From a virus, in the IMG/VR virus record IMGVR_UViG_3300036398_002458, positions 1 through 63,768 of that record: a DNA stretch of 63,768 nucleotides, one strand, 5' to 3'. Both the position numbers and the translations under genes were made by a program. Positions 21,788 through 46,624 of this stretch are shown in pieces. The notes beneath the pieces are model-generated. The model had not been told where the DNA came from. It did no database searches and saw only the letters and a program-made list of their open reading frames with translations. Numbering within the stretch: the stretch's first letter is position 1; each line of letters opens with the position of its first letter.

Positions 21788-22033
21788 TCAGGCGCGGTTC
21801 CAACGCGCCAGGATCTGCTTGATTTTTTCTTGGTGTCGCGCCCGTGGCTCAGACCTTCCGGTGAACCACGAGTACACGGTTGCCCGTGTGACGCCGAGTC
21901 TTTCCGCCACGGCTGATACGGGGATCTCCCGTACCAAGCACTCGTGGACGAACTGGAACATCAGGTCAGACAGGCAACCGTGTGCAACGGCTGCGACAAA
22001 GGAGGTGCTATACCCCCTGAGTCCTTTAGGCAT
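21788..22033 (-). CDS. Helix-turn-helix DNA-binding protein
   Basis: 81 residues. VSAVAERLGVTRATVYSWFTGRSEPRARHQEKIKQIL (about 39-75) is a clear HTH of the XRE/Cro or Fis-like kind: helix, turn at LGVT, and recognition helix RATVYSWFTG. It overlaps the upstream SSB-like gene by 8 bp and precedes the primase. It could be a small repressor or a replication accessory factor. No other domain is present. Confidence 0.7.
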   Translation of the reverse strand: MPKGLRGYSTSFVAAVAHGCLSDLMFQFVHECLVREIPVSAVAERLGVTRATVYSWFTGRSEPRARHQEKIKQILARWNRA

Positions 22034-26088: not shown

Positions 26089-27996
26089 TCAGCAGTCGCC
26101 ATAGGTCGTTCCCACCCCAGACTCGCACGCCAGGGGCAGCGTCTGGGCCCAGTCCGGGCGCCAGGACATGCACTCCTCGACGTACCGCTGAGCCTCAGCC
26201 TTCTCCTCCACGGGGGCGATACAGGCCACGGCATCGTGAACTGTCAAGACCGCCTTGTAACGCTTGGCAATGCGCAGCATCTGCTCCCCGACCACGCACC
26301 GGGCGATAGCCTGGGTGAAGTTCTCCACAACGAGTCCGCCATAAACCTTGGTGGCGATGCCCCGGGACACGTAGACCGTCTGGGGTTTGCCGTCCCCGAA
26401 AACCGTGGTCAAGCCGGGATACTGGATCCACAGCCCGGAGGGCAGGGTAATTCCCCACTCGGCGCCGCTGAGCCCCTTGGGGATGCGCGCCGTGCGGCAC
26501 AGGCCCTGCACGTCGATCTCGTACTCCTGCTCACTCTGAAGATAGGACAGCGCCATCTGCGCTTTCTGCCACAACTCCGGGATTCGGTAGTACGTGGTGC
26601 GATAGGTGTCCACAATGTTCCGCGCCTGAAGTTCGGTGACATCAACCCCCGCCTGCATCTTCAAGAACGTCCGCAGTTTGACGTGCCCGACTCCGTAGCC
26701 TGCGCCCAGGATCACGACCTTGCCCACCTGCCGTTCGGACTTGGTGATCTGGTCTTCGTGCTTGCCGTAGATGCGGCTTGCCATGATTCTGTATACATCC
26801 CGCTTGTTCTCGAAGGCGGTGACCAGATCTTCCTGTCCGGCCAACCACGCCAGGGTCCGCGCTTCGATCTGTGAGGAGTCCGCGTCGATGATGACGTGTC
26901 CGGGCGGCGCTTGGATGGCCCGCTTTATCTTGCCTGCGTTCTCTCCGCGCGATGGCAGGTTCTGGAGGTTGATCTTGTCCTGGCCCGACCACCGGCCCGA
27001 GTGCGCCCCGTAGTAGCGCAGAGGCACCGGGAACTTGCCCCGGAACGACATGTCGATGAACCGCTCCGTGCGAGTCTCTTCAAGCGTAGTCTTGTTACCC
27101 AGGCGGGCGGCCACCAGGGCCTGCACCTGCTCGTTCGGATGATCTTGCAGGGCGATCATGCCCGGGTCGGTCTTGGCAAAAGCGTAGGTCGTGCGGCCCG
27201 TGGTCGGGCTTACCTTCAGCGGCGGGATCACGCCCAACAACTCAAGCGCGGCGGCGAACTTGTCGTTGGACATCAGGAGTTTCTTCAGCCCCTCGGTGCC
27301 CTCGGTGAAGATGGTCTGCACGAAGTCGGCGTTGCCCTCCTCGATCATCTTGTCGCGCAAGGTTGCCAAAAGGTTGGCTTTGCGGTCCTTGACTTCTTGC
27401 AAATGTGTGATAAGCAGATCGCGGTCCAACTCCAACACGGGCTCGATGAACATGCGCAGGGTCAGGTCGATCAGTTTGAGTTCGCGCGTCGGGAACCCCC
27501 GCTTGAGGTAGATGTGGAAGAGTTTGTGCGTGAGGTCTACGTCGTTGCGGCAGTAGGCGGCGTACCCGGCGATCGCGTAGGCGGAGAAGTCTTTGCGCCG
27601 CATGCCCATGGCATGCACCACCTCGTCGCCCTTGGCACCGATGGCTTCGCGCTCAGCCTGTGCGGCCAGACCGTGAGACTTCTCATGCGGGAACAGGGAG
27701 CGTGACATGCCCAGGGTGTCGGCCCACGCCTTCGGGTTGACTCCGTAGCGCCAGTTCAGGATGGCGCCATCGAACATCGTGTTTTGAGCCAAGACCATCT
27801 TGTCAGACCAATCAATCTCCCCCAACACCCGGGCCACCTCGGGTTGGTCCACCCACACCGTCGGTTCATTGTCGTGCTTGATGCCCACACCGATCACCTC
27901 GAACTCGGGGCGTCGGATGTACTCCTCCGTGGTCATCTTGGACAGCGAATATTCGCGGTCGTAGTAGGTCTCGAAGTCAATCGTTATTAGTTTCAT
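26089..27996 (-). CDS. Family A DNA polymerase with 3'-5' exonuclease
   Basis: 635 residues, T7-like size. Exonuclease motifs: D7-F-E9, NTMFD, and YCRNDVD. Polymerase motif A is DSSQIEARTLAWL. Motif B is R422-QVGK426-VVIL430-GAGY434-G. Motif C is H587-D588-A589. Two features are odd. The residue at the E. coli Phe762 position is Leu430. The motif C glutamate is replaced by alanine. Phage PolA variants with Leu at this position are known from environmental surveys. This should be the replicative polymerase; it works with the primase-helicase and SNF2 protein encoded downstream. Confidence 0.9.
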   Translation of the reverse strand: MKLITIDFETYYDREYSLSKMTTEEYIRRPEFEVIGVGIKHDNEPTVWVDQPEVARVLGEIDWSDKMVLAQNTMFDGAILNWRYGVNPKAWADTLGMSRSLFPHEKSHGLAAQAEREAIGAKGDEVVHAMGMRRKDFSAYAIAGYAAYCRNDVDLTHKLFHIYLKRGFPTRELKLIDLTLRMFIEPVLELDRDLLITHLQEVKDRKANLLATLRDKMIEEGNADFVQTIFTEGTEGLKKLLMSNDKFAAALELLGVIPPLKVSPTTGRTTYAFAKTDPGMIALQDHPNEQVQALVAARLGNKTTLEETRTERFIDMSFRGKFPVPLRYYGAHSGRWSGQDKINLQNLPSRGENAGKIKRAIQAPPGHVIIDADSSQIEARTLAWLAGQEDLVTAFENKRDVYRIMASRIYGKHEDQITKSERQVGKVVILGAGYGVGHVKLRTFLKMQAGVDVTELQARNIVDTYRTTYYRIPELWQKAQMALSYLQSEQEYEIDVQGLCRTARIPKGLSGAEWGITLPSGLWIQYPGLTTVFGDGKPQTVYVSRGIATKVYGGLVVENFTQAIARCVVGEQMLRIAKRYKAVLTVHDAVACIAPVEEKAEAQRYVEECMSWRPDWAQTLPLACESGVGTTYGDC

Positions 27997-30511: not shown

Positions 30512-30726
30512 TCCTTGCTCCTTGCTCTGATGGCGTCCCCATATGTGCCGCCGCCTTCCTTGAGTATGTGGTCAACCAACTTCGCGCACTCCTCTCGTTC
30601 CCGTTCAGCCACCAGTCGAGCAAAGTGTTCAAACGAAGCGATGCCCGTGCTAGAAGCGACCATGAAACGCCGGTCAATGTAGGCGTGTGCCTTGTTTGCC
30701 AGTTCAATGATTTCTTCTTGGGTCAT
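30508..30726 (-). CDS. Second Ea22-like small protein
   Basis: 72 residues from the ATG at 30726, which overlaps the upstream stop. It carries EREREECAKLVDHI...GDAIRARSKE, the same ERExCA...AIRAR signature as 30066-30287, preceded by FEHFARLVA. The two genes may be diverged paralogues separated by one gene. Function unknown. Confidence 0.55.
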   Translation of the reverse strand: MTQEEIIELANKAHAYIDRRFMVASSTGIASFEHFARLVAEREREECAKLVDHILKEGGGTYGDAIRARSKE

Positions 30727-31034
30727 ATCCCGCTCCCCTTCCGGCATGGCCACGCTGCGCGCATTGCCTGGGAGGCCAAGAAGTCGGCAGACAAGTGCCT
30801 CTGCTCTGGCCTGTTTTCCAGATAGCGTTTAACCACATCAAGCGCCTGCCCCAATGTCACATCGCTTGGTGAGCAGAACAGAACCTTGTCGTTGGCATCA
30901 TGGACACCCGCCACATAGAACATGACCTGAGAAAGCCGCCCATCTCGCAGGCGCTCGTAGAGTTCGTTCCCGCTGAAGAACTGTGCCTGGGCGGGGCCGC
31001 TGCACAGCGCCAAGACTGCAATCCATTTCTTCAT
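30723..31034 (-). CDS. Exported Rap1a/Tai-like protein
   Basis: 103 residues from the ATG at 31034 (ATGA overlap). There is a clear signal peptide ([18 protein letters not shown]). The mature part contains FYVAGVHDAND, FCSPSDVTLGQALDVVKRYLENRPEQRH and a C-terminal AAWPC. The order YV-GV, FC-P--VT-GQ and WPC with two conserved cysteines matches Rap1a/Tai immunity proteins (PF18602), small periplasmic proteins that neutralise type VI effectors. The family assignment is from memory. A periplasmic host-interaction role is inferred. Confidence 0.6.
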   Translation of the reverse strand: MKKWIAVLALCSGPAQAQFFSGNELYERLRDGRLSQVMFYVAGVHDANDKVLFCSPSDVTLGQALDVVKRYLENRPEQRHLSADFLASQAMRAAWPCRKGSGI

Positions 31035-31150
31035 ATCATTCCCCACAAGTAAGTCAGCAACATCATCAGCGTCACGAACGGGGCGAGGAACACCACGACC
31101 ATGACGGTGATCAGCCAGTACAGGACGATGAATTCACCAAGCCATCTCAT
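31031..31150 (-). CDS. 39-residue membrane protein
   Basis: Starts at 31150 (ATGA overlap with the regulator upstream) and ends in an ATGA overlap with the exported protein. After MRWLGEF it is almost wholly hydrophobic, with enough length for one long or two short spans. No family is recognised. The perfect coupling supports it as real. Confidence 0.6.
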
Positions 31151-31875
31151 GTTTGCGTCTCCTTCTTCTCTTTCTTGCGCTGCTCTTCTTCCCACGCAGC
31201 GCGTTCGTCCGGGCTCATCTTGGCCCACTCATGCGCTTGCCTGATGGCGTCGAAGTCCACGCCCTTTGAAATCCCTGCGCATTCGCGCAGTGTGTCCACG
31301 CGGGTAGGGTGCTTGAGTTTACGGATGGCCTTTGTCTCGATCTGACGGATGCGTTCCCGGCACACATCGAACTTGGCGCTCACCTCTTCCAACGTGAGTT
31401 CGCTCTGAGTGTCGATACCAAACCGCAGACGTAACACCTTGGCCTCTCGCGGCGTTAGGCTGTCGAGCATCTCGGCTACAACACGATGCCGATCTTCTTC
31501 CTCCAGGCCCGCATCGGGGGCGGGGGCCTCAAGCAACTCCCCGGTGTGCCGTGCAAGCATCTCCACCATCGCCCTGTGGCTCATGCCAAAGTGCGACTTG
31601 TTGGTGGGCAGCACAAACAGCAACTGCTCAGGCGTCCACAGGTCTTCGGGCAACACCCCCAGGAACTCGCAAAGGCGTTGAGCGGTGGGAATGATCTCCC
31701 CGCTCTTGCCCATCGGTGACGCCTTGAAGTTAATCAAATTACCGATGTGCGTCGGGGTCAGGTTTGCAGCCTTGCAGAACTGCGCCACATTTGCGTAGCC
31801 CGCCTTCTCGATGGCGTTGAGGATGAGGTTGTTCCTGACCTTGAGGTCTATGCGGTATTCGCCGTCGTCGCTCAT
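31147..31875 (-). CDS. HTH plus sigma-70 region 4 regulator
   Basis: 242 residues from the ATG at 31875. Residues about 14-75 form an XRE-like HTH ([20 protein letters not shown]). Residues 137-192 are a good sigma-70 region 4 ([15 protein letters not shown]...[27 protein letters not shown]). Region 2, needed for -10 recognition and core binding, is missing, so it cannot be a normal sigma factor. It may act as a region-4 decoy or activator that redirects host RNA polymerase. The C-terminus is a charged helix. It is coupled to tiny membrane genes on both sides. Confidence 0.75.
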
Positions 31876-31994
31876 GTCAACCACCCTGCCCAGTGAAGGA
31901 AGTACACCAGGGAGAAGAACAGAAAGCCCAGTGCCATCAGCATGGCGATGAGCCACCCCAACTCTTCCATGCCATCGTCTTCATAACGATTCAT
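31872..31994 (-). CDS. 40-residue membrane protein
   Basis: Starts at 31994 with an ATGA overlap. An acidic head ([12 protein letters not shown]) is followed by one long hydrophobic span ([20 protein letters not shown]). It ends in an ATGA overlap with the sigma-like gene. Function unknown. Confidence 0.6.
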
Positions 31995-33044: not shown

Positions 33045-33442
33045 TTGCGCGGGTCCTCTAGGTCAATGAATGTGGTTAGGTGATGGTTCTTGTCGGTACG
33101 GAACCACAGGATCTCGTCCGGTGGCGGCTCGTTGGTCTTGCGTAGATGGCCGGATATCTTCGCCACCACGAGGATTGGCACAAGCCATACCGGCACGTTG
33201 TCTGTGTTTCCACGGTCAGTCCATTCGGTGCCGTCGTACCAACGCTTGATGAGATAGACATCCCCACGTCGCTCGTACCGGAACTCGTATTCGTCGTTTG
33301 TCATGTGGATTGATTTGTGTTGATGTCGGGCTCGTCGCAGTCCGTCGGCCCAGACAATCTCGTCTATCGATCGGTACCAGTCCTCATGGTCAGCAACCGT
33401 CTGCCTGATCTGCTCAAGCCAATACTGTTTGATCAGACCCAT
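33041..33442 (-). CDS. Hypothetical protein
   Basis: 133 residues from the ATG at 33442, preceded by GGGAGTGGACG. It contains YWLEQIRQTVADHEDWYRSIDEI, a beta-looking middle (YEFRYERRGDVYLIKRWYDG) and a short hydrophobic segment (VPVWLVPILVVAKI). It overlaps the DUF3150 gene by 29 bp. Not recognised. Confidence 0.5.
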   Translation of the reverse strand: MGLIKQYWLEQIRQTVADHEDWYRSIDEIVWADGLRRARHQHKSIHMTNDEYEFRYERRGDVYLIKRWYDGTEWTDRGNTDNVPVWLVPILVVAKISGHLRKTNEPPPDEILWFRTDKNHHLTTFIDLEDPRK

Positions 33443-34331
33443 CGTCCACTCCCCAGTCGAATGCCGCCAGGATCGCGTCCACCTTCTGCTTGGTGGCCGC
33501 ACGGGTACCGTCGGACTCTCGCAAGTCCTTTGGTGTTACGCCAGACAGAACTTCCTCCAGACGACGCCGCGCCTTCTCCAGTGCAGGGTCGTTGGTGATG
33601 TTCATGTGCGTCAACAACTCGCACAACTCCACGGCGCCAGTGACCATGGTGTCGTGGAACTTGCGCTTCTTGCCGTCCTCTTCGATCACGAGCCGGTCGC
33701 TCAGGCGGGACAGCGCATCGTGCAGTCGAGTCCATGAGTCCTGCGCCGCCGCTTCCAACTGCTGCTCCATGCGCTTGTCGTACTGACGCATGAGATCGCG
33801 TTGCACTTCGCTCTCGATGTCGAGCCGGAAGTCGCCCGCCGTGGGCAGGGGAGAGAACGCAATGTCGAACCGGAACTTGCGCGCCACCTGCTCACGGGTG
33901 GGGTACTCATCACGATCAAAGAGCGTGCCCAACTGGAACGCGGCGGCGGCCACGAGCGTGTCGTACTTGTCGAGGAACGCCTCGACCAGACGGTTGAACT
34001 CAGCCTCATGCACATTCATCTCCGCCTTGTAGGACTGCAACAGGGCAGTGGGCAACAAGCGCGCGCCGTAGTCGTTCCAGGGCTTCGTGAGCCGGTAGTG
34101 GTCGGCACGGGCACGGGCTTGGTACTTGGTGATGGCGTCCAGTTCGGCACACTCTGCGAACAGAGACTTGTAGACAGACGCCGCCTTGGACGACTTCGCG
34201 CCCTTGGATTGCGTCACCTCGGCTTGCGTAGCCTTGTCCTGCTTGCGCCCCGAGTACAGGGAGATTTGCAGGTCCACGAGCATGGCCGCACGTGCCACGC
34301 CTGCTACGGGGTTGGTTTCGATGTAGTTCAT
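33414..34331 (-). CDS. DUF3150 protein
   Basis: 305 residues, helical and charged. It has the DUF3150-like start (two residue blocks around LVDLQISLYSGRKQDKAT) and LAxYKAEMNVHEAEFNRLVEAFLDKY-type helices in the middle, read in pieces by eye. DUF3150 proteins are often encoded beside MoxR ATPases and VWA proteins. That is the case here: the MoxR and VWA genes lie 2-4 kb upstream in the same operon. It is probably a substrate or partner of that ATPase module. Confidence 0.65.
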   Translation of the reverse strand: MNYIETNPVAGVARAAMLVDLQISLYSGRKQDKATQAEVTQSKGAKSSKAASVYKSLFAECAELDAITKYQARARADHYRLTKPWNDYGARLLPTALLQSYKAEMNVHEAEFNRLVEAFLDKYDTLVAAAAFQLGTLFDRDEYPTREQVARKFRFDIAFSPLPTAGDFRLDIESEVQRDLMRQYDKRMEQQLEAAAQDSWTRLHDALSRLSDRLVIEEDGKKRKFHDTMVTGAVELCELLTHMNITNDPALEKARRRLEEVLSGVTPKDLRESDGTRAATKQKVDAILAAFDWGVDDGSDQTVLA

Positions 34332-34591
34332 TCTGATTTCTCCTGTTGCTTTTGAACGAATTTAATTGCTTCGACTTGCTCGTCGCTTACGACATTGATG
34401 GTCAGTTGCTCTAGCGGGTTGAATGGTTGGATGATTGGCAGGTAGTTGTTGCCGCTTCCAGTAGTCCCCTTGCCGTTGCCAATCCATTTGGTTTGCATGC
34501 TCTCGGCTTTGCACAGCAGCGTTGACAACGCTTCCAACTGCTCGTACGTCAGCAGCACCGTGTGGTCGCTGATCTCGACTTTGAATCTCAT
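34328..34591 (-). CDS. Hypothetical protein
   Basis: 87 residues. It starts MRFKVEISDHTVLLTYEQLEAL and has a glycine-rich middle (NGKGTTGSGNNYLP) and ends VEAIKFVQKQQEKSE. It is coupled by 4-bp overlaps to DUF3150 downstream and the 204-residue gene upstream. Not recognised. Confidence 0.55.
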   Translation of the reverse strand: MRFKVEISDHTVLLTYEQLEALSTLLCKAESMQTKWIGNGKGTTGSGNNYLPIIQPFNPLEQLTINVVSDEQVEAIKFVQKQQEKSE

Positions 34592-35202
34592 ACGGTTTCT
34601 CCTTCGATTTCAAACTTCACTTCGTTGATCTCGCACGACTCTATGAAATACTCCTCGGACGAGATGTGGTCCCACTCCGACCGCAACGCGTCGAGCAGAA
34701 CGTCGGCTTTTTCTTGTGCGAACTCCCGCACCACTTCCTCGATGCGGGACTCTCGCCACTGGTCGTCTAGCAGTTCTTCCCAAGTCTCTTCGTCCAACTC
34801 GGAGAAGATTCCGCGCGGCGCCATGAAGCGGGTGTTTTCCTGAATGTCTACCTCCAGGGTCTTGTTCCGCCATCCAGTCAGATACACCCGTGCCCACGAG
34901 CGATCGTGCTCCACAGCGATGTACAAAGCCGGGTAGCGTTCGTCCAGCCCCTTGCGCTTCATGAAGGGAGCGAGGTGAAACGAGCCCTGCCAAGCGGCAT
35001 CAGCGTGGCCGTAGTCGATGCCCTCGAACTGGATGTCCGCCACCTGCACTCCCAACTCGTCCATCTGCTGTTTGAAGTCGTCCTCCACCGTGTCCCACCA
35101 CTCGGGGTGAAGGCAGTTGTCGAGGAAGCCCTGATGCTCTTTCTCAAACCGCTTTGGGTCTAGCGTCTTGAGTTCGTGGATGTCTACTTCGCGTGTAGTC
35201 AT
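34588..35202 (-). CDS. Acidic protein of the MoxR/VWA island, unknown function
   Basis: 204 residues, strongly acidic, with many Trp (HPEWWDTVEDDF, AWQGSFHLAPF, WDHISSEEYF). It carries IQFEGIDYGHADAAWQGSF, seen as a conserved block in related phage proteins. No enzyme motif. Just upstream lies a perfect palindrome (35214-35228) and GGAG. Confidence 0.55.
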   Translation of the reverse strand: MTTREVDIHELKTLDPKRFEKEHQGFLDNCLHPEWWDTVEDDFKQQMDELGVQVADIQFEGIDYGHADAAWQGSFHLAPFMKRKGLDERYPALYIAVEHDRSWARVYLTGWRNKTLEVDIQENTRFMAPRGIFSELDEETWEELLDDQWRESRIEEVVREFAQEKADVLLDALRSEWDHISSEEYFIESCEINEVKFEIEGETV

Positions 35203-35213
35203 TTCATTTCTCC

Positions 35214-35228
35214 ATCTAAGGCTTAGAT
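35214..35228. promoter_or_regulatory. Palindromic element, copy 2 (perfect)
   Basis: ATCTAAGGCTTAGAT. It includes the stop of the VWA gene and lies directly before GGAGAAATG of the 34588-35202 gene. Confidence 0.75.
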
Positions 35229-36407
35229 GTCCAGGTGAATCGTGGTGCCGAACGGCGCCACAAGGTTAGAAGTCACAGCCCACAGGGTTGGGATGGTGGT
35301 GCGTCCCCAGTCCCCGACATACCCGTCGGTGAACTGCACGATGGCCTGGGGAGCCAAACTTTTTTCTTTCAAGTAATCAAACAACACCGACCCGTCGGTG
35401 CCGCCGCCACCCTTGATCTTCAGGTCCTGCACGGCGAACTGACCATCCTCGAAAGTTTGATGCCCGGCCACCTCGGTGTCCCAATAGATCACGTGGACCT
35501 TGCCCGGCTTGACCTGTTCGATGATGGTGCGCAACTCCGAAACGAACCGCGTCATTTCATCGCCGCCGAAAACCGAGCCGGAGGTATCGAACCCGATCAC
35601 CAACTCGGTGATAGTGATGCCCTGCATGGACGGCATGTAGATGTCGTCGGCCAAGAACCTACGGTTGGGCTTGCGCCACGTGGACTCGTCGCGTCCCTGG
35701 CACATCTCTTGGATGAACTCACGCAACGCCTTGCGCCAGTCAACCTTGGGTGCAAGCAAGTCGCCGAAGATACCGTCGGCCATGCCCGCGCCCTTGCCTG
35801 CCAACTTCTGACGCAACATCTCGCCCTGGCGCACGGCACGTGCGATCTCCTGGGCTTGTGCTTCTGCGGCTTTCTTGGCCTCATCGCCACCGTCCCTGGC
35901 GTTCTCCCAGTCGTGCGTGTCGAGCCCGCCATCGCCGTCCCCATCGCCGCTCTCGCCCCCATCAGGCGGCGGGTTCTTCTTCAGGTCGTCGAAGATCTGA
36001 CGCACCGACCAGCCCCGGTACTTCTCGTCGGGCTTGATGCCGATCTTGGGCATGCGGATGAACCCCTCGCCCGCATCCATGTCCACGAGTGCGAGGTTGA
36101 CAAAGTAGTCGGCGGCTACGTTGGCAAGGTGCGGGTCCTCGTCGTGCAGGTCCTGCCACGTGTGCAGGTGGCGATACGCCTTGTGCGTGGCCTCGTGCAA
36201 CACCACGAAGCGCAACTCCGGGTCGGTCGGCATGTACTGCTTCATGAACTCGGGGTTGTACTTCACGTCCCAACCATTCGTGGCGGCGGTGGGCACCTCG
36301 TCGGTGACCTCGACCTTGCCGCATGCCAGGACCCCGGCATACACGCATGCCTTCTTGTGTTGCATGATGGCGATGTGCGCCTTGCGGATACGATCAATCG
36401 GTTCCAT
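35223..36407 (-). CDS. VWA-domain metallopeptidase-like protein (DUF2201 type)
   Basis: 394 residues. The N-terminal part carries a zincin motif H71-E-A-T-H75. A glycine/aspartate-rich linker follows (about 147-165). The C-terminal half is a von Willebrand A domain with MIDAS residues D274-T-S276-G-S278, a GGGGTDGS loop and FTDGYVGDW. This two-domain layout is the usual partner of MoxR-type AAA+ ATPases, comparable to the CobT/CobS pair. It may be a chaperone- or protease-like complex. Its stop sits inside one palindrome and another lies just upstream of its ribosome site. Confidence 0.8.
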   Translation of the reverse strand: MEPIDRIRKAHIAIMQHKKACVYAGVLACGKVEVTDEVPTAATNGWDVKYNPEFMKQYMPTDPELRFVVLHEATHKAYRHLHTWQDLHDEDPHLANVAADYFVNLALVDMDAGEGFIRMPKIGIKPDEKYRGWSVRQIFDDLKKNPPPDGGESGDGDGDGGLDTHDWENARDGGDEAKKAAEAQAQEIARAVRQGEMLRQKLAGKGAGMADGIFGDLLAPKVDWRKALREFIQEMCQGRDESTWRKPNRRFLADDIYMPSMQGITITELVIGFDTSGSVFGGDEMTRFVSELRTIIEQVKPGKVHVIYWDTEVAGHQTFEDGQFAVQDLKIKGGGGTDGSVLFDYLKEKSLAPQAIVQFTDGYVGDWGRTTIPTLWAVTSNLVAPFGTTIHLDI

Positions 36408-36423
36408 GGTTTCTCCTGTTGTG

Positions 36424-36438
36424 ATCTAAGGCTTAGAT
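36424..36438. promoter_or_regulatory. Palindromic element, copy 3 (perfect)
   Basis: Between the small 36446-36613 gene and the VWA gene. On the minus strand it is followed by CACAACAGGAGAAACC and then the ATG at 36407. Nearly the same leader follows copy 5. Confidence 0.75.
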
Positions 36439-36445
36439 GTTGTGG

Positions 36446-36613
36446 CTACTTGATTCCCCTGCCTATGAAGGCAGTCTGGATACGGTGCGCATCACGGGAT
36501 TCGACGTGGTTCTTCATGGGTGGGGTGTATGCCTTGCTGATGCGAGCAGGGCTCCAGTCCTTGTGCAAGCGCACACGGCGCGTTCCGTTGCTGAGGTATT
36601 CGATGACTAGCAT
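36446..36613 (-). CDS. Small basic protein between MoxR and VWA genes
   Basis: 55 residues from the ATG at 36613, preceded by AAGGGGG. MLVIEYLSNGTRRVRLHKDW, then SPARISKAYTPPMKNHVESR. It is basic and probably beta-rich. It lies 10 bp after the MoxR stop and before a palindrome at 36424. Not recognised. Confidence 0.5.
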   Translation of the reverse strand: MLVIEYLSNGTRRVRLHKDWSPARISKAYTPPMKNHVESRDAHRIQTAFIGRGIK

Positions 36614-36623
36614 GGCGGCCCCC

Positions 36624-37685
36624 TTAGAAATACTTGCCCAACTTAGCGGCGGCTGCGGTGAAGCGGCGGTTCTTGCACGCCATCGCCACCTTGGACTTGT
36701 TGCCCGCAAGTGAGGATACGAACAGCGAGTAGGCTTCGAACGACGTGATGCGTTCGGCGTACACCATGACTGCATCGAGATCGTCCTCGGTCACACGGTT
36801 GGCAAGCATGAAGGCCAGGATAAACATGGCACCCACGGCGTCCTCTTTCGGAACCTTGGTCTTGTGCGGATCCTTGACGATGTTCTCGTACAGGGGCAGG
36901 GAGTCAGCGAGGTTGACCAAAGCCACCATGAGTTGCGCCGCCGACTCGCCGATCGTGCCTGCTAAAGCCGGCAAAAATGCGTCCCCCAAAACAGACCTTT
37001 GTTTCACGATGTTCGATCCACGCTCCATGGAACGCGGTGAGCAGAAGGTCCGCGTGTTGCCAGTCAGGGGGTTGAAGATGTACGGGTTCTTCTCGTTGCG
37101 ACCCAGGTCGGTGTAGCACTGGAACACCTCGGGGTTTTGCTTGGCGAACGCCATCATCTCGGGGGCGATGTCGTTGTCCGCCGCCCAGTGCAACCACTCG
37201 TCAGCGGTGGGGTTGGCCACCACGAGTTCAGTCATGCGGTTGTAGGCATGCGCCGGGATGTTGTCGCCCACCCCGTCGGTGTCGAGGTTTGTGGTTGCGA
37301 TGACGATCGACCCGGTAGTCAGGCCACGGTCAGCGATGCGCTTCTCGTTGACGAGCGGCAACAGCATGTTCAGCACAGGGCGGGACGCCTTGCCCAACTC
37401 GTCAAGCATGATGAGCAGGGGGCGGTTGCTGCCGTTGGCAAGCCCGAAGCGGGCGTTCGGTGCGTAGTTGGTAACCATGGCTTCGCGGTCGATGACGGGC
37501 ATGCCCAGGTCACCGAGGTCAAGGTTAGCCACGTCGATATAGCAGGGGATGTAGTCCGGCAGTTCCTTGGCGAGCATGGTCAGGATCGCTGACTTGCCCA
37601 CACCGGGTTGGCCCCGCAGGATCACGGTGTTGGTGGTGCCGACGGCACGGATCACGGTAGCGGCTTGGTTCAGATTGACTTTCAT
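36624..37685 (-). CDS. MoxR/CobS-like AAA+ ATPase
   Basis: 353 residues. Walker A GQPGVGKS (25-32), Walker B LLIMLDE (90-96), sensor-1 N133 in ATTNLDTDGVG, and a following helical lid. Sequence order fits the MoxR/CobS branch, which remodels or activates VWA-domain partners. The partner is encoded next in the operon (35223-36407), with DUF3150 after it. CobS-like ATPases occur in some phages, but a role in cobalamin synthesis is unlikely without other pathway genes. Confidence 0.85.
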   Translation of the reverse strand: MKVNLNQAATVIRAVGTTNTVILRGQPGVGKSAILTMLAKELPDYIPCYIDVANLDLGDLGMPVIDREAMVTNYAPNARFGLANGSNRPLLIMLDELGKASRPVLNMLLPLVNEKRIADRGLTTGSIVIATTNLDTDGVGDNIPAHAYNRMTELVVANPTADEWLHWAADNDIAPEMMAFAKQNPEVFQCYTDLGRNEKNPYIFNPLTGNTRTFCSPRSMERGSNIVKQRSVLGDAFLPALAGTIGESAAQLMVALVNLADSLPLYENIVKDPHKTKVPKEDAVGAMFILAFMLANRVTEDDLDAVMVYAERITSFEAYSLFVSSLAGNKSKVAMACKNRRFTAAAAKLGKYF

Positions 37686-39059: not shown

Positions 39060-39392
39060 TTGGGTGTTGTTGAGTGCGATAGGACGTGTCAGCGTGGCAT
39101 CTCCCGCATCACTGCGGCTCCACGCTCAAGGGAACGTACCGGTTTCCCGGCATAGGTTCCCATCCATTTAGGCACTATGCGTCGGCTTTGCATCACGCTA
39201 TCCCCGTTCGGAGCCGGGCAGGGCTCACTACTCTACGGGTACACCACGGATGCACCGGACTGACTACCGGACGCCTTCTCGCGCAGGGAGGTTACTTGGA
39301 TGTACCGGGCGTCTCACGACGTGGACCGGGCTAGCCTATCTTTCACCTATGGCGCTTCTGCCATGTGGCAGCGGCGGTTTGTTTGCCCCGGC
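39060..39392 (-). ncRNA. Candidate structured RNA between two palindromes
   Basis: About 330 bp with no convincing gene. Read on the minus strand it forms several clean hairpins: CCGCA-GTGA-TGCGG (39104-39117) nested in AGCGTGG/CCACGCT (39091-39126); CCGG-GAAA-CCGG (39139-39150); GCATAG/CTATGC (39150-39180); and CGTC-GTGA-GACG (39310-39321). Three have GNRA tetraloops only on this strand, which fixes the orientation. It does not match tRNA, tmRNA, RNase P or the group I core as I know them. An open frame at 39086-39334 on the plus strand has no ribosome site and looks accidental. Confidence 0.45.
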
Positions 39393-39407
39393 ATCTAAGG
39401 CTTAGAT
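39393..39407. promoter_or_regulatory. Palindromic element, copy 7 (perfect, extended stem)
   Basis: CATCTAAGGCTTAGATG flanked by CCCG and CGGG, again extending the stem. It forms the upstream boundary of the candidate structured RNA; copy 6 forms the downstream boundary. Confidence 0.75.
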
Positions 39408-39412
39408 GACGG

Positions 39413-39577
39413 GACGGGTCAGCGGATTGTTAAGGAGCGCGGGTTGGCATGGGGTAGGGGAAATGGCAACCGCATCGGAGATCGCAGGGCGAAGTCCGAC
39501 TGAACCCTTATTATGCCTGAAAGCGGGGCGTTTGTCAAGTCTCCAGAAAATGTTTTGGAGAGTGAGATTGGAGGGGG
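39413..39577. other. Intergenic, no feature seen
   Basis: 165 bp between palindrome copy 7 and the iteron region. It contains TCCAAAACATTTTCTGGA-type short inverted sequence near 39540-39560 and a second TTAACA on the minus strand near 39430. No gene is supported. Confidence 0.4.
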
Positions 39578-40022
39578 TTGTAACGGATGTAACGAAATTG
39601 GCGAGGTTGTAACGAAATTCGCGTAACAACACTAACCCTTAGGGGGACAATGAATGGCGTGGTAGTGGGGGCTTACTTCAGGGGCGAAAATGGGGGGTGC
39701 AACGGTGTAACGCGGTTTTAGAGAGAGAAAGCGAAAAAACAAGAATTTTCGCTCAAAAAACAAGTCACCAAGGGTTTACACCTACAAAATGAGCGAAATT
39801 TGGGAATCATATAAAAATCCGCGTTACAGCGTTACATCCTATCTATCTATCTATTATGTAGTGTAGTAACAACACAAACACCTGCTTTTTCCTACGGGTT
39901 GCTACCTACTTTTGCTACATTTTGCAGCAACTCGGGGTGTTTTCGTTCGGGTTAACCCGAGGGTTAGTGTTGTAACGCCGATTTCGTTACATCGAGGCAA
40001 ATTTCGTTACATCCGTTACAAG
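39578..40022. other. Candidate replication origin: iterons in nested inverted repeats
   Basis: Left arm 39578-39644 and right arm 39957-40021 form an imperfect inverted repeat of about 65 bp; their first 22 bases match exactly when one is reversed. A second nested pair is at 39698-39717 and 39815-39835. GTAACG/CGTTAC occurs about ten times over the whole dyad. The centre is AT-rich, with (TATC)4 at 39840-39855 and a CGGGTTAACCCG palindrome at 39948-39959. No gene is present. An iteron origin bound by a phage initiator is the likeliest reading; a multi-operator control region is the alternative. Confidence 0.5.
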
Positions 40023-40025
40023 GTC

Positions 40026-40040
40026 ATCTAAGGCTTAGAT
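40026..40040. promoter_or_regulatory. Palindromic element, copy 8 (perfect)
   Basis: CATCTAAGGCTTAGATG, 4 bp from the right arm of the iteron inverted repeat and next to the 40062-40090 terminator. Confidence 0.75.
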
Positions 40041-40061
40041 GCGAAAGTGCTTGACGCCGCG

Positions 40062-40090
40062 CAAAAAAGCGCGCACACTACGTGTGCGCG
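40062..40090 (-). terminator. Intrinsic terminator, leftward
   Basis: Stem CGCGCACAC/GTGTGCGCG (9 bp, 3-base loop; 40070-40090) followed on the minus strand by C and TTTTTT. A strong rho-independent terminator. It would end any transcript coming from 40.1-40.3 kb before the iteron region. Confidence 0.75.
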
Positions 40091-40093
40091 GTC

Positions 40094-40108
40094 ATCTAAG
40101 GCTTAGAT
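40094..40108. promoter_or_regulatory. Palindromic element, copy 9 (perfect, extended stem)
   Basis: CATCTAAGGCTTAGATG with GCGG before it and CCGC after it, extending the stem through one bulged base. It lies directly upstream (leftward reading) of the 40062-40090 terminator. Confidence 0.75.
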
Positions 40109-40117
40109 GCCGCCCCT

Positions 40118-40268
40118 GCGTGATAGTGTCTAATCTTAGATGCGGCGGGGTCGGCCCGGCGATCTAAGATTAGATGCGGCGCTTCGCGCGCCTGCTCCCC
40201 CACGCGCCCTCTCGCTCACGCGCCTTCGGACTACTATCACGCAAACGTAGCGCAGGCTACGTTTGCGT
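40118..40268. repeat. Nested inverted repeats in the control hub
   Basis: TGCGTGATAGT (40118-40128) pairs with ACTATCACGCA (40232-40242). Overlapping its right end, ACGCAAACGTAGC (40239-40251) pairs perfectly with GCTACGTTTGCGT (40256-40268) around a 4-base loop. The outer loop encloses the two variant palindromes. No U-tract follows, so these are not simple terminators. Confidence 0.65.
40128..40175. promoter_or_regulatory. Two variant palindromes in inverted orientation
   Basis: GTCTAATCTTAGAT at 40128-40141 and ATCTAAGATTAGAT at 40162-40175. Each lacks one central base, and they are reverse complements of each other at 13 of 14 positions. Both are followed by GCGGCG. Confidence 0.6.
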
Positions 40269-40275
40269 AGGCAAC

Positions 40276-40298
40276 AAAAAAGCCCGCCGAGGCGGGCT
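40276..40298 (-). terminator. Intrinsic terminator of the 40329-40886 gene
   Basis: On the minus strand: AGCCCGC-CTCG-GCGGGCT followed by TTTTTT. It lies 30 bp downstream of the stop codon at 40329. A strong rho-independent terminator. Confidence 0.85.
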
Positions 40299-40328: not shown

Positions 40329-40886
40329 TCACTCTGCGGTTTCCTTGAACCCGTCCAGGGATTCGATCGCCACGTCCAAGACTTGCGCGGCGAACTCTGT
40401 CAGGCCGAGCATGCGGGCCTGGGCGATCGCCTTGGACAACGTTTTGTCCAGATCCTCGCGTGACGTGGACGTCACGGCGCCTGCCTTGCTCGCGCCACCC
40501 TTGCCCGCCTTGCCCCAGGGCAGGCCAAATTCCGGGCGATTCTTGATATCGGCGAACCATTCAACGCCGTGGTGCAAGGCGCGGGCGGCGCCCTGCGCAT
40601 ACTCTGTAACCGTGCTACGGTGCAACAGGCCGTCCGCAACAGCCCGGACAAACGCATCGGATTCCCGGATCGCCTTTTGCACGGCCTTGCAAGACTCTTG
40701 ATCCTTGCCGATGCCCGGGGCAACGCGCACCGCGTCAATGTATTGATTCATTGTGCGGGACAGTTGATCGGCAAAATTGGACGCGGCCTTGTCAAATTTC
40801 CCGTAGGATTTGACGATCGTCAGGGCAAATGGGTTGAAGGCCGGGGCGGTGACAGCGGGCTTCGTGGGGGTCTTGATAACTGACAT
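40329..40886 (-). CDS. Monocistronic hub protein, unknown function
   Basis: 185 residues from the ATG at 40886, chosen because AAAGGAAATCACC precedes it; a start 81 bp upstream overlaps the promoter. The N-terminus is Pro/Thr-rich (VIKTPTKPAVTAPAFNPFAL). The rest is helical, with SNFADQLSRTMNQYIDAVRV and TSREDLDKTLSKAIAQARML. It has its own promoter and terminator and sits alone beside the candidate origin, so it is probably expressed first. An early host-takeover or initiator protein is plausible; no family is recognised. Confidence 0.65.
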   Translation of the reverse strand: MSVIKTPTKPAVTAPAFNPFALTIVKSYGKFDKAASNFADQLSRTMNQYIDAVRVAPGIGKDQESCKAVQKAIRESDAFVRAVADGLLHRSTVTEYAQGAARALHHGVEWFADIKNRPEFGLPWGKAGKGGASKAGAVTSTSREDLDKTLSKAIAQARMLGLTEFAAQVLDVAIESLDGFKETAE

Positions 40887-40948
40887 GGTGATTTCCTTTG
40901 ATTGACGTTGATTGAATTGCCGATCGCGTGTCGCAATCGACAAGGCCG

Positions 40949-40977
40949 ATTGTGCATGGGTTCGCATGGGTTGTCAA
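40949..40977 (-). promoter_or_regulatory. Sigma-70-like promoter of the 40329-40886 gene
   Basis: On the minus strand: -35 TTGACA (40977-40972), 17-bp spacer, -10 CACAAT (40954-40949). The consensus -35 and ideal spacing make it convincing. A variant palindrome lies just upstream, and the flanking sequence is shared with 39016-39043. Confidence 0.7.
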
Positions 40978-40989
40978 GTGTTTAGTTAG

Positions 40990-41004
40990 ATCTAAGGGTT
41001 AGAT
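40990..41004. promoter_or_regulatory. Variant palindrome (one mismatch)
   Basis: ATCTAAGGGTTAGAT, 12 bp upstream of the -35 of the leftward promoter at 40949-40977. Confidence 0.6.
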
Positions 41005-41269
41005 CCTGGGGGCCCCTGGCGCGACCCCACCGCCCCCCGGGGCCCCATGTGGCGCTTGGGACTCCGCGCGCTGCGCTTGTGCTGAGTGTTGCACGCTCCC
41101 ACACCTCCCCAAAACAACGTACTGTATAAAGCTCCAGTACAAAATAAAATTTCCCGCCAGCCCGACCCCACCCCCCTTAAAAGGGAAACACCCCCCGTCA
41201 AGGGGACCCAAACTACCCAACACACAAAAAATACCCTACACTCGCGCCGTCCAGGGCTGCGCAATCGCC
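41005..41269. other. Intergenic region upstream of the late genes
   Basis: 265 bp without a gene. It holds GC-rich runs, an inverted pair GTACTG/CAGTAC (41119-41140) enclosing TATAAA, and CCCTT-AA-AAGGG near 41174-41185. No good -35/-10 pair for the rightward genes was found. The late promoter may need a phage factor, perhaps the sigma-region-4 protein. Confidence 0.5.
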
Positions 41270-41845
41270 ATGTTCGTACCGTCAATCGATTTTGATACCC
41301 CCCTTGCGGACTTCTCGCCGACGTTTGAGTCGCTTGAAGATCGAGTAACCGCCGCCCTCCAATCCTTGATGGATGTGGGGCACTTGCCGACTCCGACGGA
41401 GCAAGACCGCAAAATCGGTCGGGCAGCCCTGATGGGCAACTCGGTATCCGAGGAAGAACTCTCCAGGCCGGAAGTAATCGTTCACATCGCGGCCATGCTG
41501 GACGAGTACGACAAGACGGTCGTGAAATCTGCCCAGCAGATGCGGACCTACGTCACGAACAAACTGATCCTGGAGACCGAGAACCCCGACCCCCGGATCC
41601 GCCTGAAATCCCTGGAACTGCTGGGCAAGATCTCCGACGTGGGACTGTTCACGGACAAGACCGAAATCACGCTGCGCCACCGTCCGACCGAAGAGTTGGA
41701 GCAGATGCTGCGCGAAAGGCTGACGCAGGTCATCGAAAACGAGGTGTTCGAGCCCCGTGCCGACGCCAAAACCCCTGCCAAACTAGACCTGTCAGAGATT
41801 ACGGACGTGGAATCCCGCGAAGAAGCGGATGAAAATTCCCTCTAG
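41270..41845 (+). CDS. Terminase small subunit (putative)
   Basis: 191 residues directly before, and overlapping by 17 bp, the large terminase gene. It is charged and helical, with SPTFESLEDRVTAALQSLMDV, PDPRIRLKSLELLGKISDVGLF and an acidic C-terminus. Position, size and helical composition fit a DNA-recognition subunit that starts packaging. No clear HTH was seen, so the call rests mainly on position. The ribosome site is weak. Confidence 0.6.
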   Translation: MFVPSIDFDTPLADFSPTFESLEDRVTAALQSLMDVGHLPTPTEQDRKIGRAALMGNSVSEEELSRPEVIVHIAAMLDEYDKTVVKSAQQMRTYVTNKLILETENPDPRIRLKSLELLGKISDVGLFTDKTEITLRHRPTEELEQMLRERLTQVIENEVFEPRADAKTPAKLDLSEITDVESREEADENSL

Positions 41846-43367: not shown

Positions 43368-45887
43368 ATGGCAACCAATTCCATGATGCCTTCGGTTTAT
43401 TCCGCCCCACAGGGTTTGGAAACGCTGGCCGAAGATCTACCTGTAATCGAAATCGAGGTTGAAGACCCGGAATCTTTGAAGATCGCCATGGGCGGCGTCG
43501 AGATCGAACTGGAGCCCGAAAGCGAAACCGGCGACGAAGCGTTTGACGCCAACCTTGCCGAGTACATGGACGAGAACGAACTCCAGAAGGTCGCCTCCGA
43601 TCTGATGGGCGAAGTGGACGGCGACATCAACTCCCGCAAAGACTGGGTGGAGATGTTCGTCAAGGGGCTCGAAGTCCTGGGCATGAAGTACGAGGAGCGC
43701 ACCGAGCCGTGGAACGGCGCGTGTGGCGTGTACTCCACGATCCTGACCGAAGCCGCAGTGCGCTTTCAGTCCGAGACGATCATCGAGACTTTCCCCTCCG
43801 TCGGGCCCGTCAAGACCGAAATCGTCGGTGCAATCGACAAACTCAAGGAAGAAGCAGCCGAGCGCGTGCGCGACGACATGAACTACCAGTTGACGGAGGT
43901 CATGTCCGAATACCGCCCCGAGCATGAACGCATGCTGTTCAACCTGGGCTTGGCAGGTTCGGCGTTCAAGAAGGTGTACTTCGACCCCAGCCTGGGTCGG
44001 CAGGTCTCGATCTTCGTCCCGGCAGAAGACGTCATCATTCCCTACGGTGCTACCAGCGCCATGGAAGCGCAGCGGGTCACGCACCTCATGCGCAAGACCA
44101 AGAACGACATCAGGAAACTCCAAGTCGAGGGGTTCTACCGCGACGTTGACCTGGGCGACCCGGTTCAGATCCACACGGACGTGGAGAAAAAGAAAGCCGA
44201 GGATCAGGGCTACAGCCTGACGGATGACGACCGGTACCAGATCGCAGAGATTCAGGTCGATTACGACCTGCCGGGATACGAGGACAAGGACGGTATCGCG
44301 CTGCCCTACATCATCACCATCGACCGGGGCACTTCCAAGGTCCTGGCCATCCGTCGCAACTGGCAGCCTGACGACGAGAAGAGACTCAAGCGTCAGCACT
44401 TCGTACAGTACACCTACATCCCAGGGTTTGGCGCTTATGGCTTCGGCTTCATACACCTCATTGGTGGATACGCTCGTGCTGGTACTTCTCTCATCCGGCA
44501 GTTGGTTGATGCCGGTACTCTCAGCAATCTTCCGGGCGGTCTGAAATCGCGCGGCTTGCGCGTCAAGGGCGACGACACGCCCATCGCCCCGGGTGAGTTC
44601 CGCGACGTGGACATCCCGTCTGGTGCGCTGCGCGACAACATCATGCCGCTGCCGTACAAGGAGCCGTCACAGGTCCTGGCAGCACTGCTTGAGCGGATCA
44701 CCGAAGAAGGCCGCCGTCTGGGCTCCATCGCGGACATGAAGGTCAGCGACATGTCGGCCCAAGCCCCGGTGGGCACGACGCTGGCCCTGTTGGAGCGGCA
44801 ACTCAAGACCATGAGCGCGGTGCAGGCACGTGTGCACTTCGCCATGAAGCAGGAGTTCAAACTCCTCAAGGCCATCATCCGCGACTACACCCCGTCGGCG
44901 TATTCCTACGACCCGGAGAAGGGCAGCCGCCGCGCCAAGCAAGAGGACTACGACATGGTGGAGGTTATCCCCGTGTCGGACCCCAACAGCAGCACGATGG
45001 CGCAGCGGATCATGCAGTACCAAGCGGTCATTCAGTTGGCTGCGCAGGCTCCGCAGATCTACGACCTGCCCCAGTTGCATCGGCAGATGATCGAGGTCCT
45101 GGGCGTGAAGAACGCCGAGAAGTTGGTGCCAATCGAAGACGACATGACCCCGCGCGACCCGCTGTCGGAGAACATGGCGTTCCTCAACGGCAAGCCGGTC
45201 AAGGCGTTTATCTACCAAGATCACGACGCCCACATCGCCACCCACATGGCGCTGATGCAAGACCCGCTGATGGCGCAGCAGATCGGCCAGAACCCGATGG
45301 CTCAGCAGATGATGTCGTCCATCCAGGCGCACATCATGGAGCACTTGTCCTTCGCCTACCGGGCCAAGGTCGAGGAGCAACTGGGCGTGCCGCTGCCCCC
45401 GCCCAACGAGCAGTTGCCCGAGGAAGTCGAGGTCAACCTCTCGCGCATCATCGCGCAGGCTGCACAGCAGTTGTTGGCCAAGGACAAGGCTCAGGCTTCG
45501 CAACAGCAGGCGCAGGAGATGCAGCAGGATCCGCTGATCCAGATGCAGCAGAAAGAACTCCAGATCAAGGCCCAAGAAGCCCAGATCAAAGCGCAGAAGG
45601 TCATGGGCGACTTGCAGGTCAAGCAGCAGGAACTGGCGCTCAAGGCCCAGGAAGCGGCGGCTCGCAGCGGAGAAGATCCGCAACTCAAGGCCATGGCGCA
45701 GCAAATGGAGATGCAGATGCGGCAGCAGTCGCACAATCAGAACCTCCAGCAAAGCGCCCAGACGCATCAGCAAAAGATGGCCCAAGCCGCCCAGACGGCT
45801 GAGCAGCAGGCCAAGATCCGGGCCTTCAACGCCGCCACGGCTGCGATGAACAAGGCCAACCAACCCAAGAAGGAGAAGCCTGAGTGA
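43368..45887 (+). CDS. Portal protein, P22-like
   Basis: 839 residues, in the large podovirus portal range. The N-terminal 60 residues are acidic. The core includes EEAAERVRDDMNYQLTEVM, FNLGLAGSAFKKVYFDP and PAEDVIIPYGAT. The C-terminus (about 680-839) is a Gln-rich coiled coil (QAQEMQQDPLIQMQQKEL), like the barrel of P22 gp1. It forms the dodecameric DNA channel and lies next to the large terminase. It overlaps the glycosyltransferase gene by 4 bp. Confidence 0.85.
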   Translation: MATNSMMPSVYSAPQGLETLAEDLPVIEIEVEDPESLKIAMGGVEIELEPESETGDEAFDANLAEYMDENELQKVASDLMGEVDGDINSRKDWVEMFVKGLEVLGMKYEERTEPWNGACGVYSTILTEAAVRFQSETIIETFPSVGPVKTEIVGAIDKLKEEAAERVRDDMNYQLTEVMSEYRPEHERMLFNLGLAGSAFKKVYFDPSLGRQVSIFVPAEDVIIPYGATSAMEAQRVTHLMRKTKNDIRKLQVEGFYRDVDLGDPVQIHTDVEKKKAEDQGYSLTDDDRYQIAEIQVDYDLPGYEDKDGIALPYIITIDRGTSKVLAIRRNWQPDDEKRLKRQHFVQYTYIPGFGAYGFGFIHLIGGYARAGTSLIRQLVDAGTLSNLPGGLKSRGLRVKGDDTPIAPGEFRDVDIPSGALRDNIMPLPYKEPSQVLAALLERITEEGRRLGSIADMKVSDMSAQAPVGTTLALLERQLKTMSAVQARVHFAMKQEFKLLKAIIRDYTPSAYSYDPEKGSRRAKQEDYDMVEVIPVSDPNSSTMAQRIMQYQAVIQLAAQAPQIYDLPQLHRQMIEVLGVKNAEKLVPIEDDMTPRDPLSENMAFLNGKPVKAFIYQDHDAHIATHMALMQDPLMAQQIGQNPMAQQMMSSIQAHIMEHLSFAYRAKVEEQLGVPLPPPNEQLPEEVEVNLSRIIAQAAQQLLAKDKAQASQQQAQEMQQDPLIQMQQKELQIKAQEAQIKAQKVMGDLQVKQQELALKAQEAAARSGEDPQLKAMAQQMEMQMRQQSHNQNLQQSAQTHQQKMAQAAQTAEQQAKIRAFNAATAAMNKANQPKKEKPE

Positions 45888-46624
45888 GTGGACCGCTAGT
45901 CTCGCTGATGATGATCTCGTACAACAACGTGGCCTACCTCAAGGCCGCGATTGATAGCGTGTTGGCTCAGACCCACACGAACTGGGAAATGGTCATCAGC
46001 GATGACTGCTCCACTGACGGCTCCTGGGAATTGGCTCAAGTGCTTGGCGCCCGGGACAGCCGGATCAAGGTCGTCCAGAACGAGCGCAACCTCAAGACTC
46101 CGGGCAATCGCGCCGCTGCCATGAAGCACCTGAGCGGGGAGTTTGTGGGCCACATCGACGCGGACGACATGCTCTATCCGTACTCGGTGGAGCACATGCT
46201 GCGGCTGTTCGCCTCCCGTCCAGATGTAGGCATGGCGTACTCCGACATGTCTGACATCAACACCAAGAGCAAGGTGACGGGCTATCGAGCCCACCCCGAG
46301 GAAGATTCCAATCTAGCGCACCACGGATGGCGGCACTTTGGCATGTACCGCATGAGCGCGTATCAAACGGTGGCTGGGTACAACGACAAGTTGACCCAGG
46401 GCTGCGAAGACGGAGACTTGTTTCTTCAAATCGCAGAGCATCACAAGTTTGTGCGTATCCCTGAAGTGCTCTACGCCTACAGATCTCATGGGGACAACAA
46501 CAGCACCAAGAACCACAAGTGTGAGTCTTGCCCCGACCGACCGGTGTGTAACTACGTGCGGATCTGGTCCAAGCACGCTGGGTACGACCCCGTAACCTTT
46601 ACTCCGCTGAAGAAGGATTCCTGA
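45884..46624 (+). CDS. GT2 family glycosyltransferase
   Basis: 246 residues. GT-A fold features: LVSLMMISYNNVAYLKAAID at the start, D40-D41 in VISDDCSTDGSW, the metal-binding I-D92-A-D94-D, then GMAYSDMSDI and GCEDGDLFLQI with the catalytic ED. The C-terminus has a cysteine pair (CESCPDRPVC). It probably transfers a sugar from a nucleotide donor to a phage or host surface structure. Its position between portal and scaffold genes is unusual; the 4-bp overlap shows it is expressed with the capsid genes. Confidence 0.8.
   Translation: MSGPLVSLMMISYNNVAYLKAAIDSVLAQTHTNWEMVISDDCSTDGSWELAQVLGARDSRIKVVQNERNLKTPGNRAAAMKHLSGEFVGHIDADDMLYPYSVEHMLRLFASRPDVGMAYSDMSDINTKSKVTGYRAHPEEDSNLAHHGWRHFGMYRMSAYQTVAGYNDKLTQGCEDGDLFLQIAEHHKFVRIPEVLYAYRSHGDNNSTKNHKCESCPDRPVCNYVRIWSKHAGYDPVTFTPLKKDS

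Follow-up and report, generated by a model that had tools for sequence, protein, structure and literature searches.

Genomic setting of the array

The window, i.e. the whole 63,768-bp stretch of DNA analyzed, is the record of an uncultured water phage. Its large terminase is 44–45% identical to the terminases of Pelagibacter phage HTVC023P and phage DSL-LC04; a search for DNA similarity between the window and isolate phages gave no match. Since the genome encodes its own terminase, portal, major head protein and polymerase, it does not represent a helper-dependent satellite or island such as a PICI. Gene order runs on across the contig ends of relatives (in G004 the array lies at 66.7 kb of 67.5 kb and the next genes at the contig start), which indicates circular or circularly permuted genomes, in which the array does not mark an end.

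The segment under study (39578–40022, Table 1) contains no gene, as originally predicted, and an Rfam search of the array region gave nothing above threshold. The segment does not, however, lie exactly at the divergence of the early and late blocks, where it had been placed: a leftward gene (40329–40967) is located to the right of the array, between it and the true divergence at 40967–41270. Next comes a putative terS (41270–41845), located 1.2 kb to the right of the array and also found in marine array-bearing genomes. The terminators and palindromes expected on the right side are present as two leftward-reading terminator-like hairpins (40070–40090 and 40281–40298) and a palindrome at the array edge.

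Several other elements were observed around the array. A palindrome family, ATCTAAGGCTTAGAT and its variants, occupies early-block intergenic gaps and the surroundings of the array (sites 32842, 35215, 36425, 37707, 38553, 39009, 39394, 40027, 40095, 40129, 40163 and 40991) and is a candidate operator; the corresponding places in relatives hold other palindromes (TTCTAAGCTTAGAA, GTCTAATATTAGAC, AAGTTCTACATTGTAGAACTT). To the right of the array, a C-rich stretch without coding capacity (40185–40260) is 66–76% conserved in many relatives. On the minus strand of 39070–39290 there is a conserved structured RNA candidate, located in the leader of the leftward early transcript, which has no Rfam match; in seven sequences, 11 of its 30 predicted pairs are changed on both sides (for example, a GAAA-loop hairpin has CCGG/CCGG vs TGTG/CACA). 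Genes for an AAA ATPase, a VWA-like metallopeptidase and a DUF3150 protein (33414–37685) adjoin the candidate origin and are conserved in freshwater and marine relatives; a Rhizobium phage also has AAA and VWA-type homologues, and the AAA protein resembles proteins of N4-like phages as well. Farther left, a small early gene (30723–31046) encodes a Rap1a immunity-protein domain (Pfam E 4e-17) and has a 43% identical counterpart in DSL-LC04, and the product of 31147–31956, not found in the relatives tested, has a sigma-70 region 4 domain and is possibly a phage sigma factor. A glycosyltransferase family 2 gene between the portal and head genes (45884–46624) was likewise not found in relatives.

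Architecture of the array

The segment is bounded by two inverted outer arms (39578–39639 and 39960–40021; 62 nt, 87% complementary, 320 nt apart), whose initial 22 bases, TTGTAACGGATGTAACGAAATT, are exact in both, and it encloses a second inverted pair (39695–39719 and 39815–39839; 25 nt, 84%). Both pairs, the exact start included, had been noticed in the original prediction and are confirmed here. The inverted-match score was 38, compared to at most 16 in 40 dinucleotide shuffles of the segment. The earlier estimate of about ten GTAACG/CGTTAC boxes was also correct: there are ten exact copies between the arms, five GTAACG and five CGTTAC. When the box is generalized to YGTWACR, itself close to a palindrome, 11 of the 22 copies in the whole genome fall in these 445 bp, while shuffled segments contained 0.54 on average and 5 at most (5000 shuffles). 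Altogether, 12 boxes (one of them degenerate) form two facing half-sites, each with four boxes and one close pair. The start positions of the four outer box pairs each sum to 79593; thus, the mirror symmetry of the outer arms is exact to the base pair.

An AT-rich centre with a (TATC)4 repeat had been described. The AT-rich tract is there, located off-centre next to the right-hand inner pair (C), on the side facing block D; the repeat does not hold, as there are only three and a half TATC units. The tract contains CTATCTATCTATCTATTATG within the 30-bp duplex that is the least stable in the genome. The genome-weakest 30-bp duplex lies within the array in eight of the nine genomes tested (the window, G001–G004, G007, G008 and Pseudomonas phage Rollin). 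In the exception, G006, an AT-rich genome (37% GC), the weakest duplex is elsewhere.

Table 1. Coordinates of the array, neighbouring elements and replication genes in the window
Feature	Position	Strand	Remarks
Palindrome CATCTAAGGCTTAGATG	39393–39409		left of array; candidate operator; word recurs in early-block intergenic gaps
Sigma-70-like promoter TTGACA-17-CATAAT	39510–39538	−	strong; leftward into early block; outside array
Left outer arm, block A	39578–39639	+	boxes start at 39579, 39588, 39608, 39622; spacing 9-20-14
Inner pair B	39698–39712	+	TGCAACG (degenerate) at 39698, TGTAACG at 39706; 8 bp apart
Short inner inverted repeat AATTTTCGCTCA / TGAGCGAAATTT	39744–39801		near symmetry centre
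Inner pair C	39822–39836	−	CGTTACA at 39822 and 39830; 8 bp apart; directly adjoins AT tract
Candidate DNA-unwinding element	39839–39868		genome-weakest 30-bp duplex
Right outer arm, block D	39960–40021	−	boxes start at 39971, 39985, 40005, 40014; spacing 14-20-9, mirrors block A
Palindrome CATCTAAGGCTTAGATG	40026–40042		right array edge; extra copy at 40094, variants at 40129 and 40163
PrimPol-DUF927 primase-helicase, 965 aa	18869–21766	−	C-terminal winged-helix-like domain, residues ~865–935; proposed box binder
SNF2-family helicase	23386–24933	−	core of shared replication module
Family A DNA polymerase	26089–27996	−	same replication module

Conservation of the layout in close relatives

Contigs with a related terminase carry the same array. 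In ~40 related IMG/VR contigs the boxes follow one another in steps of 8-21-14-85-8-124-8-96-13-21-8 bp, a near-perfect mirror, with a limited range of variation (8, 20/21 and 13/14 in one arm; 85 or 96, 8, 124, 8, and 85, 96 or 106 between the arms; 13/14, 20/21 and 8 in the other arm), and in all these relatives the AT tract stands beside one inner pair. Beyond near-identical relatives the sequence between the boxes has turned over, and the DNA no longer aligns with the array of the window. It is the layout that is conserved and not the sequence. The comparison of arms and flanking genes in relatives, suggested in the original prediction as a check, thus came out in its favour: box positions and mirror symmetry are kept where the intervening DNA is unalignable. 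A cruciform or hairpin function of the arms is disfavoured, since relatives keep the positions of boxes and not the complementarity of arms.

In L017, L023 and L045 the mirror extends to all 12 boxes, with deviations of at most 1 bp (P ≤ 0.001 vs shuffled spacings); mirror statistics with strict boxes were not significant in L039, L041, L049, L064, L079 and L083, which have flank changes or shifted spacings. Two exact scans of the viral collection detected the four-box arm in 31 contigs. Thirty belong to this phage group (29 assigned by protein matches and L204 because its contig gave L057), and the only contig from outside, L206, has an irregular box run. There is one array per genome in G001–G004, and some relatives carry short inner pairs, GTCAAAAA..TTTTTGAC, similar to that of the window.

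The A–B and C–D gaps vary among relatives in steps of approximately one helical turn (85, 96, 106–107). We treat helical phasing of the gaps as a lead only: the relatives share ancestry, and the gaps of the window itself, 76 (A–B) and 141 (C–D), depart from the series.

The array tracks the replication module

DUF927 homologues of ~34% identity led to a marine clade with the near-complete genomes G006–G008. Marine arrays are found at the syntenic locus, flanked on one side by the leftward AAA/VWA/DUF3150 genes and on the other by terS, with boxes AATGTTCC (G006), AATGTTAC (G007) and AATGTAAC/GTTACATT (G008) around an AT tract. Left boxes face one way and right boxes the other in G006 and, mostly, in G007. 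The start region of Rollin holds eight of the nine TATGCAA/TTGCATA boxes found in that genome, with mirrored arms (282–309/652–679) and a triple box directly beside the genome-weakest duplex (550–579). Rollin has replication genes in common with the window; homologues of the terminase genes were not detectable.

The PrimPol-DUF927 protein, the SNF2 helicase, the polymerase and nucleases are common to the window, Rollin and the marine genomes, and the PrimPol-DUF927 protein is encoded in every clearly array-bearing complete or near-complete genome. HTVC023P and DSL-LC04, which have a homologous terminase, contain no detectable homologue of the 965-aa DUF927 protein and no such box cluster (the search covered all but ~5 kb of DSL-LC04). 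With arrays present in Rollin and the marine genomes and absent from these two phages, the array follows the replication module and not the terminase or the 40329 gene. Rhizobium phage RHph_TM3_14A encodes a 25% identical DUF927 protein; no clear array was recognized there, although an AT-rich gap (19400–20050) has suggestive repeats, none definable as an array. No GTWAC cluster was found in cellular contigs with a PrimPol-DUF927 gene (L229–L233).

A candidate initiator protein

The DUF927 domain of the proposed initiator spans residues 397–670, and Pfam DUF927 is present in 26 of 26 homologues. By profile, the domain matches the helicases SaPIbov1 Rep (8tch, E 4.4e-22) and SCCmec Cch (5dgk, E 2e-15), which are also the top Foldseek matches of the helicase part; the assignment rests mainly on sequence profiles because the full-length model is poor in this region. 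The N-terminus has a PrimPol fold (Foldseek: S-2L PrimPol 6zp9, RepB' 3h20/3h25). The order of domains is AEP followed by DUF927, with a predicted winged helix at the C-terminus, an architecture described for PrimPol (archaeo-eukaryotic primase)-DUF927 proteins (PMC5862659). The C-terminal domain is predicted to fold as strand-strand-helix-helix-strand-strand (pLDDT mostly 75–89) and is similar to the end of Cch and to the winged helix of DNA-bound TcpK; Foldseek matches of this domain alone have E of 0.02–0.2 and probability of 0.9+.

The DUF927 protein Cch is related to SaPIbov1 Rep, and the C-terminal domain of SaPI Rep recognizes origin iterons (PMC7581432). By homology, we infer that the PrimPol-DUF927 protein may bind the boxes. 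Among the binders named in the original prediction this primase-helicase fits best. The 40329 product was rejected: array-bearing G002, the marine genomes and Rollin yielded no homologue of it. The 81-aa HTH protein (21788–22033), not found in marine array-bearing genomes, is an unlikely binder.

Interpretation as a replication origin

We consider it highly probable that the segment 39578–40022 is the replication origin of the phage. This possibility, raised from the letters of the window, is now the best-supported reading, since relatives preserve the layout even where the DNA between the boxes can no longer be aligned. The segment is best read as an iteron origin that initiates replication in both directions, with binding of the boxes and firing inferred. 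The C-terminal winged-helix domain of the PrimPol-DUF927 protein would bind the boxes; two groups of protomers, one per array half, would assemble and melt the AT/pyrimidine tract; two oppositely facing helicase rings would load; and the fused PrimPol domain would prime synthesis, to be extended by the phage family A polymerase, resulting in bidirectional replication. In four of the five freshwater-clade genomes the GC-skew minimum, which is confounded with gene direction, is 4–5 kb to the left of the array; it is elsewhere in the fifth, and 1–2 kb to the right of the array in marine genomes. The AT-skew minimum follows the gene divergence, 1.1–1.8 kb right of the array (0.9 kb in Rollin).

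The array might instead be a transcription-control centre, with boxes serving as operators through which a phage regulator would switch transcription of the leftward early and rightward late blocks, possibly via looping between the arms. The nearby divergent gene blocks, the strong leftward promoter adjoining the array and the small HTH proteins encoded by the phage are consistent with such a switch, and the gap differences of approximately one helical turn also fit looping. However, the promoter (39538–39510) is outside the array, the boxes form one cluster only, while the element spread over early intergenic gaps is the ATCTAAGGCTTAGAT palindrome, and neither the HTH protein 21788–22033 nor the 40329 product was found in marine array-bearing genomes. 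As the genome-weakest duplex inside the array is also left unexplained, we regard a transcription switch as improbable.

The proximity of the putative terS, observed in marine array-bearing genomes too, would fit a packaging (pac) site to which the small terminase binds. Yet HTVC023P and DSL-LC04, with a homologous large terminase but other replication genes, have no such array, Rollin has an analogous array without recognizable homologues of these terminase genes, and an AT-rich melting tract is not expected at a pac site, making this explanation very improbable. Lower still we place two others. Some plasmid partition sites have two iteron sets with a spacer between them, and the array could be a centromere-like site of this kind, as in plasmid parC, but a scan of early proteins that covered part of the small ORFs gave no ParA/ParM/ParR-like protein. 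A recent inverted duplication without a function of its own is suggested by the 87% match across the full 62-nt arms, non-box bases included, which may reflect copying or gene conversion between them; the comparative data already contradict it, given that box spacing and mirror order are kept in dozens of relatives with otherwise unlike arms.

Comparison with known origins

Read as a replication origin, the array is similar to PICI/SaPI origins (SaPIbov1, E. coli PICI pri-rep-ori; PMC6092414, PMC7581432) in that two groups of short iterons flank an AT-rich region, an organization that PICI origins always show and that was reported for 'no other known bacterial replicon' (PMC6092414). The initiator helicase is homologous by profile and fold (to SaPIbov1 Rep 8tch and Cch 5dgk), and primase and Rep are fused in some PICIs, as in the primase-helicase of the phage. 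In contrast to PICIs, the array belongs to a complete tailed phage that encodes a terminase, a portal and a DNA polymerase of its own, it has 12 boxes in exact mirror order and a different iteron sequence, and its AT tract is off-centre, beside one inner pair. The PICI ori is immediately 3′ of rep, with pri-rep-ori driving autonomous replication, whereas in the phage ~18 kb separate the initiator gene from the array, which is near terS in G001–G004 and G006–G008 too. Thus, with a PICI layout and a homologous initiator, but far from the initiator gene and in a complete phage, the segment probably works like a PICI origin and is none.

In lambdoid origins, too, O-protein iterons adjoin an AT-rich melting region. 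In lambda the iterons lie within gene O as direct repeats, and they recruit host DnaB through P, whereas the array is intergenic and mirrored and the primase-helicase is phage-encoded; no O-type protein was found among the proteins scanned, so the lambdoid arrangement of iterons inside an O-type gene with a loader does not apply. Phage P4 has two separate sites, ori and crr, with other iterons, which its alpha protein also binds. Alpha is a fused primase-helicase that starts satellite replication (PMC7145576). The putative SCCmec origin bound by Cch2 has, like the array, short iterons, which are recognized there by the C-terminus of the self-loading initiator helicase of a mobile element (PMC7581432), but Cch2 belongs to a helicase family different from DUF927, and its origin has three direct iterons and no mirrored array.

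A broader proposal, which we hold with more doubt than conviction, is that such arrays constitute a distinct class of phage origins. Two helically phased, base-pair-exact mirror half-origins would seat two opposed primase-helicase rings, so that geometry would encode bidirectionality and priming without host DnaA, DnaB or a loader; the class would be widespread among podophage-like viruses of fresh and marine waters and may have common ancestry with PICI origins. Our searches of the open literature turned up no description of such an array, although one may exist.

It is rare for the replication origin of an uncultured tailed phage to be located. By a test of layout, i.e. mirrored boxes together with the weakest duplex, equivalent arrays were detected in dozens of contigs, and the results single out one protein as the candidate initiator. 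If our reading is true, PICI-type origin organization would extend to autonomous phages, the fused PrimPol-DUF927 initiator could be tested on defined short DNA, and the natural box variants YGTWACR, AATGTTCC and TATGCAA could be used for mapping its recognition code.
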